DNA of 64,000 nt from the NCBI GenBank assembly GCA_012728855.1, contig JAAYEH010000433.1:1-64000 (forward strand), read 5' to 3'. The notes beneath the pieces were generated by a model that was not told the DNA's origin, ran no database searches, and saw only the letters and a list, made by a program, of their open reading frames with translations. Shown one piece after another: positions 37,516-44,285 of the stretch. Position 1 is the stretch's first letter; every line of letters starts with the position of its first letter. The stretch comes from Rhodopirellula sp. (GTDB lineage: Bacteria; Planctomycetota; Planctomycetia; Pirellulales; Thermoguttaceae). Made by a program: the position numbers and the translations under genes.

Positions 37516-37680
37516 GTGTGGCACTGCTTGCGCCAGCGCGTTGGGCTTGCGATCGGTGTGGCACTGCTTGGGATTGTAGGACGGTCTTTCCGTATAGGAG
37601 AACGCGTTCAATCCCAAGCAGTGGCACACGAATCGCACCCGAACACGCCGACGGAAGCGTAACGCAATCAGGGCCACCCA
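37516..37680. repeat. Dispersed repeat with TGGCACTGCTTGGGATT hairpin, copy 1
   Basis: Contains a hairpin with arms 37556-37576 and 37609-37629 (GTGTGGCACTGCTTGGGATTG and near-complement, one mismatch) and the downstream tail CACACGAATCGCACCCGAAC to GCGTAACGC. A second copy starts at 40150, in the same orientation, so the two copies flank the histidine kinase gene at 37777-39774. The repeated reading frame on the minus strand (ALRFRRRVRVRFVCH) is not a gene but part of the element. Confidence 0.7.
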
Positions 37681-37776
37681 GCCATCTTCGACTACGTCAA
37701 GTGTCCTGGTTTCCGTTCAACGGAAAAGAGACATTCTGATGCGGGAGTTGTGGCGAGGGACGGCGCCGGCGCGGGC

Positions 37777-39774
37777 TCAATCGGCGGGCGGCGGCGAGAG
37801 TGGGGCGGATTGGGGGAGCCGAATCTGGAATGTCGCTCCACCGTCGGCGGCGAGTAGTTCGATCGTGCCGCCGTGGCGCTGGACGATCTGGCGGCAGATG
37901 GCCAAACCTAAGCCCGTGCCTTTCGCCCGCGTCGAGACGAGCGGCTCAAAGAGCGTCTGGCGAATCTCGGGCGGGATGCCGGGGCCGTTGTCTCGGACCG
38001 TCAGCAGGTCGAATCCGTCCTCCTGCCGGGCCTCGATGCGGATTTCGCCTTTGCCGCCCATCGCTTCTGCGCCGTTGGTCAAGAGGTTCCCCAAGACCTG
38101 CCGTAACTGGACCGGGTCGGCATCGACCGTGAAAGGCTCCGGCCGACAATCGATCCGGCACTCGATCTCGCCGCGGTTCTGAATCCGCTCGAATACCTGG
38201 CGGACCGCCGAGCCGAAGTCGATGGACTGTTTGACCGCATCCTTGGCGCGGACGACTTCCATGAGGTTGCTGATGATCCGGTTGGCCGTCTCAATCTCGG
38301 CGTCGATCGCTTCCAGATAGGATTGAGGCTTGGGGTCGTCGGCCGCGAGGCAGCGTCTGAGCAGGTAGACCGCGGTGTGGACGACTGCCAACGGATTGCG
38401 GAGGTCGTGGGCGATGCTGGCCGCCACCTGACCGACCAAGGCCAGCCGCTCTTGCCGGGCGAGTTGATCCTTGACCTGAGCCAACTCGGCTTCGACAGCA
38501 TCACGACGCGACGGCTGGGCTTCCAACGGAACCAGCCCCGCTTCGATCAGTTCCTGCTCGACGAGTTGGACGAACCCCGGCCAAGGCTCGTCGTCGCCAT
38601 TGGCCATGACCTGGTCGTGAGCTGACTGAATGGCAATGCGTCGCCGAGCACTGGCTTCGCGGACGGAAGCCAGCAGGGAAGAGAACTCCGCCGTCTGTCC
38701 GGCGGAACCGGCCGAACTGGAGGCGGCCGCTGCCGCTTGGGGAGCGACGAACACGAGAATGCCGGCTGCCGCAGCAGCAGGAGAGGCAGAGACAATTCCC
38801 TGCCCGGCATCGGCCAGGAACTGTGCCATGACCGATGACAGTCGTTCGAACTGGCGCCAATCGGTGACGGCGCTAAGCAGGTCGATATCGTCCGACCAGT
38901 TGGCTGGCGCGCTAGTCTGAAATGACCCGGCAGGCAGATGGGCACTGGCGTGTGCTTTCTCTTGCGGCCCGCTGATGTCGCGCCTGGCAAGGGCAAGGTT
39001 GGCGAAGATGCGGTCCTGTGCTGCGTCATCACTTTCGGATGGTTGAACCGGTGGGATCGCCGCCCCATTGGTCCGGCCGACGTCATCAGACGAAGGCAAT
39101 ACCATGCTCGGCGGGCTGTCGGCCGCGGTCTTATTGACCGCAGCATCCTGGAAACTGGCGGCATTGGAGAAGGTGGCGACATTGGAGTTGCCTCCACGGC
39201 GGTGGCTGCCGGCCGTCTTCTGCAGGACATCTCGCAGGTCGAGACCTGCCGGCGATGCAGGGTCTTGCATCGCTTCGTCTACCGGTACATCGTCGGTAAG
39301 CGCGGTAGCGTCGGATTGTTCGGCGGGTGTCCTGCTCAAGAGCGGCTCGATCGGGTCGGCGCCGGAGTCGCCTTCGGAAGAGGCGTCCGAGGAATCCTCC
39401 GTGGTCGAAGAACCTTCGGCATCGGTGGCCGGCGCCGACTCGGTGGCGGGGATGACTGGCGACAAAGCAGATTCGCCTGGTTCGCCGCCGGCGGCCGTGT
39501 CGAACAGGCTGGTCGGCGCTGGTGGCTCAACGACGATGTCTGCGGCGAGAGAATCGCCACTCAACACTTCCATCGGCGCGAACTGGTCCGCGATTGGGGG
39601 AGCGACAAGGGAGTTGCTTGCCGTGTCCAACAGTTCGGCTACCGGCAGAGAAGGTTCCGACAGCAGTTCCGGCGTTGAAGAGAGCAGGCAGCGCGTCTCC
39701 AGCAGTTCGCCTCGCAGCGGACGAAACAGGCGACTGACCCGATCAGAAGTCTCTCTCCATAAAGACCGACGCAT
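37777..39774 (-). CDS. Sensor histidine kinase with planctomycete LExRxLLS-type N-terminus
   Basis: A 665-residue protein. Residues 1-33 (MRRSLW, then FRPLRGELLETRCLLSS) match the LExRxLLS motif found at the start of large planctomycete surface proteins. Residues of about 40-400 are low complexity, rich in A, S, E and D, with one hydrophobic stretch (AAAAAGILVFVAPQAAAA). The C-terminus is a complete kinase core: H-box SIAHDLRNPL (phospho-His near residue 450), N-box QVLGNLLTNGAEAM, G1 DNGPGIP, F-box TLFEPLVST and G2 GTGLGLAICRQIV. No PAS or GAF domain is apparent and no response regulator is adjacent. ATG 39774 with GAGGTGG upstream was chosen over an extension to 39900. Confidence 0.85.
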   Translation of the reverse strand: MRRSLWRETSDRVSRLFRPLRGELLETRCLLSSTPELLSEPSLPVAELLDTASNSLVAPPIADQFAPMEVLSGDSLAADIVVEPPAPTSLFDTAAGGEPGESALSPVIPATESAPATDAEGSSTTEDSSDASSEGDSGADPIEPLLSRTPAEQSDATALTDDVPVDEAMQDPASPAGLDLRDVLQKTAGSHRRGGNSNVATFSNAASFQDAAVNKTAADSPPSMVLPSSDDVGRTNGAAIPPVQPSESDDAAQDRIFANLALARRDISGPQEKAHASAHLPAGSFQTSAPANWSDDIDLLSAVTDWRQFERLSSVMAQFLADAGQGIVSASPAAAAAGILVFVAPQAAAAASSSAGSAGQTAEFSSLLASVREASARRRIAIQSAHDQVMANGDDEPWPGFVQLVEQELIEAGLVPLEAQPSRRDAVEAELAQVKDQLARQERLALVGQVAASIAHDLRNPLAVVHTAVYLLRRCLAADDPKPQSYLEAIDAEIETANRIISNLMEVVRAKDAVKQSIDFGSAVRQVFERIQNRGEIECRIDCRPEPFTVDADPVQLRQVLGNLLTNGAEAMGGKGEIRIEARQEDGFDLLTVRDNGPGIPPEIRQTLFEPLVSTRAKGTGLGLAICRQIVQRHGGTIELLAADGGATFQIRLPQSAPLSPPPAD

Positions 39775-39927
39775 GACGCCACCTCGAAACATCCATACGA
39801 GGGCTATTGCGGTCGGACTGCCTTGCGGCTGGTTCGCCCCATACGGATGCTCAACGAGACGCCGTATGGCCGACGCGATGCGAACCGGGGCATTATCCAT
39901 GATGGTGCGTAAGAAGTCAACGATCGA

Positions 39928-40149: not shown

Positions 40150-40458
40150 GTGGCTCTGCTTGTGCCGGCGCGTTCGGCTGCGACCGGTGTGGCACTGTTT
40201 GGAGTTATACGGACGTGCCATTGGGACCGGGCTTACCACGACTCCAAACAGTGTTCGCACAGGGATCAGGCGATTTTCCCGTGCGGGCGAGTCGTTCGGG
40301 TAGCTGGGGAATAGGCGGGTCGGTCCGCCCTTGGGCACTGCTTGGGATTGCAGGACGATCCTTCCGTACAGGAGAACCCATTCAATCCCAAGCAGTGGCA
40401 CACGAATCGCACCCGAACACGCCGACGGAAGCGTAACGCAAGCAGGGCCACAGGGCCA
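40150..40458. repeat. Dispersed repeat with two hairpins, copy 2
   Basis: The left part (40150-40205) matches 37516-37570. It contains an extra hairpin (arms 40187-40205 and 40241-40259, TGGCACTGTTTGGAGT type). Then follows a hairpin identical in type to copy 1 (arms 40333-40350 and 40383-40402) and the common tail ending GCGTAACGCA. The copy thus carries two related hairpins in tandem and lies 2.8 kb from copy 1 in direct orientation. Confidence 0.7.
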
Positions 40459-41854: not shown

Positions 41855-44086
41855 TCACTCGGGCAACCGCCACAGTCGGACGAGCCGATCGACTCCGCCG
41901 GTGACTGCGTGGCGACCGTCGGGCGAAAAGGCGGCCGAGGTGATCCAGCCGGCCTGCGTGTCGTAAGACGCCATGATCCGGCCCTGCTGCAAGTCGTAAA
42001 GGTCGATCCGCCCGGTGCTGCGGCCGACGAGAGCGCGGCGCCCGTCGGCGGAGATGGCCGAGCCGCAGGCGGCGGAAGGGTTCGGCAGCCGCCCGATCTC
42101 CTTGCCGGCATCGATGTCCCACAGCGACAGCCCATCCTCCCCGATGGTACGTTCCAGAAGGAGTTGTCGGGCATCGGGCGAGAATATCGCAAAGTACGTC
42201 CCTTCCCGACCGGGCAGGGTTTTCTTCAAAAGGACTTCTCCGGTTTCCACGTCCTGGATTTGCCAGAAGGCGTCGGCGGGTGCGGTCGTGGGGTCGACAG
42301 GAGTGTAGGCACAGAAGATGCGCCGGCCGTTTTCGGCCAAACATGCGCCGGCCGGCGAGAGCCCGGGTGCGAAGAGGCGAAGCGGCGGGAGTTGGTTGCC
42401 GGATGCGATGTCCCACGTGCGAACCATCCGGCCGATGCCGCCGCCTTCGCGAGTCGAACCGTACGACAACAACCGCCCCCGGCTGGAGTCGAAGACGATT
42501 TGGTCAATCCAACCGCCGTGGTCGAACTGCTGGAGCGTGGTCCCTGAATTGGCGACAAACAGGTGGGCTTTTCCGAACACACCCCCGCAGGCAATGCGGC
42601 GGCCATCGGCCGAGAGTGCGGCGGCTTGAATGGAGCCCTGAGTGGTGAAGCGTCGCACTTCGGCCCCGGTGGTCTGGTCCCACACCCAGACCGTGGCATC
42701 ATGGCCCGCGGACAGGATGCGGCGGCCGTCGGGGAAGAAGATCACGGCGGCCAGCTTATCGGTGTGTCCCGCGAATCGGGCGATTTCGCCGGGCGGGCCC
42801 TCGCGGCGCATGGTGTCGGCTGCACCTCCTTCCAGGATGCGCAGTGCCTGCTGGGCCTCGAACCGCACATGCGGGCTCTTATCGTCGAGGGCCTCGCGGA
42901 TCGGGGCGACGGCCTCTTTGGCGCGGACTTGCGCCAGGGCGAAAAGGGCCGCCTGGCGCAGCCCGTCGTCCGGGGTCTTGAGGGCTTCGATCAGCGCTTC
43001 GGTCGTCGCCGCGTCGGCCCGGCCGAAGTGGGCCACCGCACGGGCCGCATTGCAACGCAATTCGATCTCCTCGGACCGCAGCAGCCGGGTCAGCTCGGGC
43101 ATGGCCGCGGGCCCCATGCGATCCAATCCCCAAACCGCTCCGTTGCGGACACCGGGGGCCGGGTCGCACATCGCCGCCACGAGGGCTGGGACGGCGACCG
43201 GTCCCATGGCGCGGAAAGCCCAGCCGGCGGCGTATCTGGCCGGGGATCGCTCATCGCGCATGGTCTCCAAGAGGCGGGGGATCATTTCCGGGCCAAACCG
43301 GCCCAGCGACTCGGCAGCCGTCGTGCTGACGAAGTTGCCGCCGTGCCGCTGTAATGCCTCGAACAGTGTGGGAGCGATCTTCTCGCGCTCTGCGGGAAAA
43401 CTGCCGAGGGCCTTTGCTGCCGCCTCGCGTACCCGAACGTTCGAGTCCTCGAGTAATGCGATCAGCTTGGGCACGGCCGTCACCGCCGACGGGCCGATCA
43501 TGCCCAGCGCAAAGACCGCCAACTTTCGCACGTTCGCGTTATCGGAATCCAGGCGCGGCAGAAGGTGAGGAATTGCTCGCTCGCCCAGCCGGCCAAGGCC
43601 AAGAGCGGCCCACTCGGCAGTATCGGAATTGGAATCGGCCAGCGCATCCGCCAACGCCGCGATGCTCTCAGGCTCCCGCGGTTGAAAGCCCGCTACACCG
43701 GTGGGATCCGAATGCAGCGGTGGATACCCACTCAAGGCTGCGATCGCGACTCCGCGCTGCTCGGAGTCTGTGGATCGAATCGCGCCGCACAGCACCGCTT
43801 CCAGCCCTTGAGTCTCCGGCTGGATTCGGGTCAAGGCCCAAGCCGCGCGGACCTTGAGCTGCGGGTTGGGGGATTCCAGCAGCTTGATCAAGCTGGCGGC
43901 GGCGGGCTGGGCCTCTTTGTCGAGCTGCCCCAGTTTCACGATCGCATCCTTCTGCCGTTCGACGTCCGTCGATTCAACGGCCTCGATCAGCTCGTCAATG
44001 TTCGCCTTCCCAGCCGCTTCCGCCTGAAGCGCCGCGGCCAGGAATCCCAGAACGAATTGGATAAGGCACGCAGTTGTGCATTTCAT
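41855..44086 (-). CDS. Secreted HEAT-repeat plus WD40-repeat protein
   Basis: A 743-residue exported protein (signal peptide CTTACLIQFVLGFLAAALQAEA). Residues of about 30-430 consist of HEAT/PBS-lyase-like repeats (for example DNANVRKLAVFALGMIGPSA, DSNVRVREAAAKALGSF). Residues of about 440-743 hold WD40-like beta-propeller blades (AGHTDKLAAVIFFPDGRRILSAGHDATVWVWD and TAAFSPDGRHAVTGGVDRLVRLW-type ends). Planctomycetes often join repeat domains like this, but the pairing suggests a scaffold or sensor. No catalytic motif is present. ATG 44086 starts the signal peptide and has GGAG upstream. Confidence 0.8.
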   Translation of the reverse strand: MKCTTACLIQFVLGFLAAALQAEAAGKANIDELIEAVESTDVERQKDAIVKLGQLDKEAQPAAASLIKLLESPNPQLKVRAAWALTRIQPETQGLEAVLCGAIRSTDSEQRGVAIAALSGYPPLHSDPTGVAGFQPREPESIAALADALADSNSDTAEWAALGLGRLGERAIPHLLPRLDSDNANVRKLAVFALGMIGPSAVTAVPKLIALLEDSNVRVREAAAKALGSFPAEREKIAPTLFEALQRHGGNFVSTTAAESLGRFGPEMIPRLLETMRDERSPARYAAGWAFRAMGPVAVPALVAAMCDPAPGVRNGAVWGLDRMGPAAMPELTRLLRSEEIELRCNAARAVAHFGRADAATTEALIEALKTPDDGLRQAALFALAQVRAKEAVAPIREALDDKSPHVRFEAQQALRILEGGAADTMRREGPPGEIARFAGHTDKLAAVIFFPDGRRILSAGHDATVWVWDQTTGAEVRRFTTQGSIQAAALSADGRRIACGGVFGKAHLFVANSGTTLQQFDHGGWIDQIVFDSSRGRLLSYGSTREGGGIGRMVRTWDIASGNQLPPLRLFAPGLSPAGACLAENGRRIFCAYTPVDPTTAPADAFWQIQDVETGEVLLKKTLPGREGTYFAIFSPDARQLLLERTIGEDGLSLWDIDAGKEIGRLPNPSAACGSAISADGRRALVGRSTGRIDLYDLQQGRIMASYDTQAGWITSAAFSPDGRHAVTGGVDRLVRLWRLPE

Positions 44087-44285
44087 GGTTTTTCTCCCCA
44101 AGGGAAAGCGACGGGGAACGGTTGCCCTCGTCAGACGCTTGCGCATTCTCGAAGAGCCCCTCTTTTCGTGCAACCCCACCGCGATTCTGCATGTCCGTTT
44201 TCGTCCAAGGCGTGGTTTCCGGCCGAATATCACGCGAAGGTTTTAGATCCCTTGGGGGGCGCGGAAGCCGCCGGCCAGCCGCGGA

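Follow-up and report, generated by a model that had tools for sequence, protein, structure and literature searches.

A putative histidine kinase gene that opens with a planctomycete surface-protein leader motif

The window analysed here, a stretch of 64,000 nucleotides, belongs to contig C386 (79.8 kb) of an 11.3 Mb draft genome in 721 contigs (G000). On the minus strand it carries a gene for a putative histidine kinase. The neighbouring genes encode an M14 peptidase-like protein, a GH127-like enzyme and a HEAT-WD40 protein, and they give no hint of a partner or a signal. The 792-aa protein encoded at window positions 41855-44233 is a fusion of a HEAT-repeat domain with a WD40 propeller. The kinase gene lies between two 125-nt direct repeats, which contain inverted parts. 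Roughly five more copies of close similarity and some 60 related matches occur in the genome, which looks like a dispersed REP- or MITE-like family. The features of the locus are the following.

37560-37684, plus strand: copy of the dispersed repeat, 125 nt, downstream of the kinase gene
37777-39774, minus strand: histidine kinase open reading frame, 665 aa from the preferred start, the ATG at 39774; residue numbers follow this form
37810-38118, minus strand: HATPase_c catalytic domain, residues 553-655, E=2.4e-27, with N, G1, F and G2 boxes
38245-38433, minus strand: HisKA dimerisation/phosphoacceptor domain, residues 448-510, E=2.9e-11
38407-38409, minus strand: codon of the predicted phosphoacceptor His456, in the H box HDLRNPL
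38437-38703, minus strand: predicted helical linker, residues 358-446, Arg-rich near its start (ARRR), from a low-confidence AlphaFold model
38722-38778, minus strand: weakly hydrophobic Ala-rich segment AAAAAGILVFVAPQAAAAA, residues 333-351, the only transmembrane (TM) candidate
38785-39678, minus strand: acidic region rich in Ala, Ser, Asp and Pro, residues 33-330, predicted unfolded
39679-39723, minus strand: motif of the LEPR-XLL / Planc_extracel type, RPLRGELLETRCLLS, residues 18-32, recognised by a DNA pattern, a position matrix and the published consensus
39780-39785, minus strand: Shine-Dalgarno-like GAGGTG, 5 nt before the ATG at 39774
40334-40458, plus strand: second direct copy of the repeat, 125 nt, 92% identical, upstream of the kinase gene

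The longest form of this reading frame extends from 37777 to 39900 on the minus strand and encodes 707 aa. We preferred the 665-aa form, the one proposed in the first-pass annotation, because GAGGTG precedes its ATG and because the sole minus-strand sigma70-like match near the start (TTGACT-17-GATAAT, 39920-39892; a consensus promoter match alone is weak evidence) overlaps the start of the longer form. The part of the frame that lies before the kinase domain (38440-39774) runs for 445 codons without a stop, which was matched by 2 of 3000 Markov shuffles. Among the six frames it also scores highest for codon usage (52 vs 27 for the next), and the score is positive in every 50-codon block from residue 9 onward, under a codon model trained on the genes of the window, the kinase gene included. 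From these results, we consider that the front-half frame is most likely coding. The first-pass annotation had named a start downstream of the motif as the observation that would remove the anomaly, and translation from such a start would yield an ordinary soluble kinase; short soluble relatives are known (L025, L038, L048). This possibility is improbable, given the stop-free stretch, the positive codon bias and the good Shine-Dalgarno sequence, which fits the ATG located before the motif.

The kinase boxes read HDLRNPL, NLLTNGAEAM, DNGPGIP, LFEPL and GTGLGL (H, N, G1, F and G2, respectively). Together with the two domain matches, these five boxes bear out the intact HisKA/HATPase core noted previously and assign the protein to the HisKA histidine kinases, with putative kinase activity. 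The top profiles for the core were AtoS and ZraS (NF008468 and NF007688), with scores that fall far short of the curated NCBIfam equivalog cut-offs (180 of 646 and 147 of 479 bits); the best solved match was ZraS (9jfj, E=2.4e-35). The protein shares its core and box order with the AtoS/ZraS/NtrB-like sensor kinases (H box of the HDLRNPL/HEIRNPL type); unlike them, it lacks a PAS domain and a convincing periplasmic sensor between TM helices, and no regulator adjoins its gene. The closest core, in G032:C597 (L023), is 52% identical and carries a front end with seven predicted TM helices. Another relative, in G084:C289 (L024), is 46% identical, has no TM helix and is followed by an ORF that is receiver-like by eye, and a third, in G034:C121 (L025), is 41% identical, short and likewise without TM helices. 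Related cores thus carry exchangeable front ends, which in the present kinase consist of the leader plus the tail. The absence of a response regulator beside the gene, reported at first reading, extends to the whole of contig C386, on which no receiver was found. In this genome, all but 6 of the 49 HisKA matches have a receiver within 3 kb; the unpaired receivers number 38.

The leader that normally marks planctomycete surface proteins has the consensus RRLxxExLExRxLLA, given with PF07595 (PMC8567305). RPLRGELLETRCLLS agrees with it at 8 of the 10 fixed positions, the departures being R-P for R-R and S for the terminal A. The core Ex[LF]Ex[RS]x[LF][LF], back-translated into a degenerate DNA pattern, gave 39 matches in G000, compared with 9 for the reversed control, and most of the matches correspond to Arg-rich N-termini of long secreted-type proteins. 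With a position matrix built from 34 other leader N-termini of G000, the kinase being left out, the motif scored 26.8 bits; this value falls inside the range of the leave-one-out scores of the 34 leaders (15.9-42 bits), and none of 3 million random positions reached it (maximum 13.6 bits). The matrix comparison is slightly favourable, since a core pattern of similar form had served to pick all its entries; even so, the margin is wide. By its sequence, then, the N-terminus qualifies as a Planc_extracel / LEPR-XLL leader, as the first-pass annotation had proposed. The kinase shares with the known leader (Studholme motif, PF07595 Planc_extracel, NCBIfam NF012209) the pattern RxLxxExLExRxLLS within the first 40 residues, as well as an Arg-rich context and acidic low-complexity sequence after it. 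It differs from the usual leader proteins, which carry adhesin, protease or repeat domains, in that the leader is joined to a cytoplasmic signalling enzyme.

Unlike the leaders caught by PF07595 and NF012209, that of the kinase lies below detection by both models, neither of which matched it; other clear leaders of G000 likewise escape these models or fall short of their cut-offs. The kinase locus was absent from the genome-wide searches with NF012209 and with our own 9-row profile, owing to the shortness of the motif and the search prefilter. It was recovered with the DNA pattern and with the matrix. In all, G000 encodes more than 30 clear LEPR-type leaders, whereas NF012209 reports nine places over its cut-off, which indicates that the published model undercounts this signal.

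The presence of the leader makes export or a surface location of the kinase protein possible. If the whole protein were exported, the kinase domain would be a passive passenger, a reading that draws on the usual association of this leader with surface proteins (PMC8567305). All the kinase boxes are conserved, however, which is not expected of a domain without access to ATP, and we regard this explanation as the least probable of those considered.

Residues 33-330 have a net charge of -34, three Lys and no Cys. The low-complexity region described at first sight is thus present, with a length of about 300 residues (33 to about 330) instead of 350. In a single-sequence AlphaFold model, pLDDT was below 50 almost throughout residues 57 to 368, and the whole model was poor (mean pLDDT 44); it is informative only in that most of residues 57-295 are predicted without a fold. 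Residues 1-430 have no relative elsewhere in their own genome, and none that is credible among 396 genomes of the order. A search of genome contigs returned distant ordinary kinases only. Weak order-wide matches to the N-terminal half (E 0.0015-0.009) proved on inspection to be antisense, in another frame or unrelated low-complexity sequence. L122, another leader protein of G000, was likewise rejected as a relative of the front half (E=0.34, composition only).

The best hydropathy window of the protein covers residues 326-344 (KD 1.94 over 19 residues). For residues 333-351 we obtained a dG of +2.07 kcal/mol, using a re-implementation of the dG predictor. Control proteins from the window of DNA fell where they should: segments of TM proteins (MFS, symporter, MntP-like) gave about -0.5 to -3, and the best values of soluble enzymes were 2.0 to 4.4 (SDR, 2.00); other leader proteins gave 1.29 to 3.8, mostly from 2.10 up. 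A 12-residue KD scan of the first 70 residues revealed no Sec-type hydrophobic core, the best value being 0.81 compared with 1.7-2.7 in four proteins of the window that are membrane-bound or carry a signal. Because its dG equals that of the soluble controls, the kinase is without a convincing TM helix. The first-pass annotation had pointed to an anomaly, a surface-protein motif on a cytoplasmic kinase, and had suggested either another role for the motif or an unusual membrane-spanning sensor; the motif and the mismatch are real, and the membrane-spanning sensor found no support in these energies. Among 15 leader proteins examined, the most hydrophobic segment belongs to another orphan leader protein, encoded at L152:8110-9843 (G000 contig 78; 577 aa, motif ERIENRIVM), which has a disordered acidic body and a short tail and gave no Pfam match.

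A single-pass sensor deserves consideration nonetheless. In such a protein, the leader would send the N-terminus out, the acidic region of 300 residues would lie outside, residues ~328-351 would stop transfer and the kinase would be cytoplasmic. The acidic, Lys-poor and Cys-free composition of the front half is consistent with this arrangement, and it also fits that the most hydrophobic segment of the kinase protein falls at the junction, with an Arg-rich linker after it. L122 is built along similar lines: its segment is slightly more hydrophobic (dG 1.29) and precedes a short tail. On the other side, the energy of the candidate segment is that of the soluble controls, the segment includes Pro and Gln, and the low-confidence AlphaFold model gives no structural support. 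The position of residues 333-351, between the acidic tail and the ARRR linker, speaks a little for a TM helix and the energy against it, and we hold the single-pass sensor to be possible but doubtful.

To look for other proteins with the same N-terminus plus HisKA, as the first-pass annotation had proposed, leader and HisKA matches were compared by contig, strand and distance. This kinase is the only one of the 49 HisKA genes of G000 that has both in one frame, the other 48 matches having no leader in frame, and by the same comparison no leader-kinase was found among the matches listed for G007, G010 and G012; for G017, the leader sites covered reach contig 46, and the HisKA matches covered are the stronger ones. 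In the literature we found no report pairing LEPR-XLL or PF07595 with a kinase. As read from the sequence, the joining of a known leader to a known kinase core is real and rare. Being a singleton in a draft genome whose contamination is estimated at 8.9%, it could also reflect an assembly chimera, or a recent accidental fusion without function, and the 92% identical repeats that bracket the gene favour misassembly or recombination. Nevertheless, these repeats lie outside the reading frame, and the junction between leader and kinase is continuous, in frame and codon-biased, so that an artefact or accident of this kind seems very improbable.

Our preferred reading, which we put forward tentatively, is a lineage-specific fusion in which the sensor gave way to a leader and a disordered tail. 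The product would be an orphan kinase with its catalytic half in the cytoplasm. An AtoS/ZraS-like core would have lost its usual sensor domain, whose place was presumably taken by two features typical of planctomycete surface proteins, the leader motif and a disordered acidic front end. The dimeric kinase would autophosphorylate His456 in the cytoplasm and transfer the phosphate to a response regulator whose gene lies elsewhere in the genome. The front end would have no part in catalysis and form a flexible tail, and the leader motif either would not be read as an export signal or would only bring the protein near the membrane. The motif statistics, the intact HisKA and HATPase_c domains, the relatives with other front ends, the front half without a credible relative, and the uniqueness of the combination among the HisKA genes and in the other three genomes compared argue for the fusion. 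A cytoplasmic location is suggested by the lack of both a segment of TM quality and a Sec-like hydrophobic core, and we favour, with the same reserve, an orphan kinase that is located in the cytoplasm and bears a disordered tail over a bitopic sensor. Against the cytoplasmic location, the leader is well formed, lies in an Arg-rich context and is spaced as usual from a good start, which suggests that it may be functional, in which case the N-terminus would be outside; moreover, the hydrophobic stretch sits where the TM helix of a bitopic sensor would be. As for the fusion, it has no orthologue from which selection on the front end could be read.

It is also conceivable, though unlikely, that the leader provides the N-out signal for a single-pass sensor kinase whose disordered, surface-protein-like segment is itself the sensor outside the membrane. 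If this were true, the leader pathway would become testable through a kinase read-out. A good leader and a domain bound to the cytoplasm in one protein constitute a natural test of the leader: if it is ignored in the kinase, this bounds the role of the leader; otherwise, the leader can start a bitopic membrane protein. The leader-kinase is also a caution against taking every LEPR protein to be extracellular.
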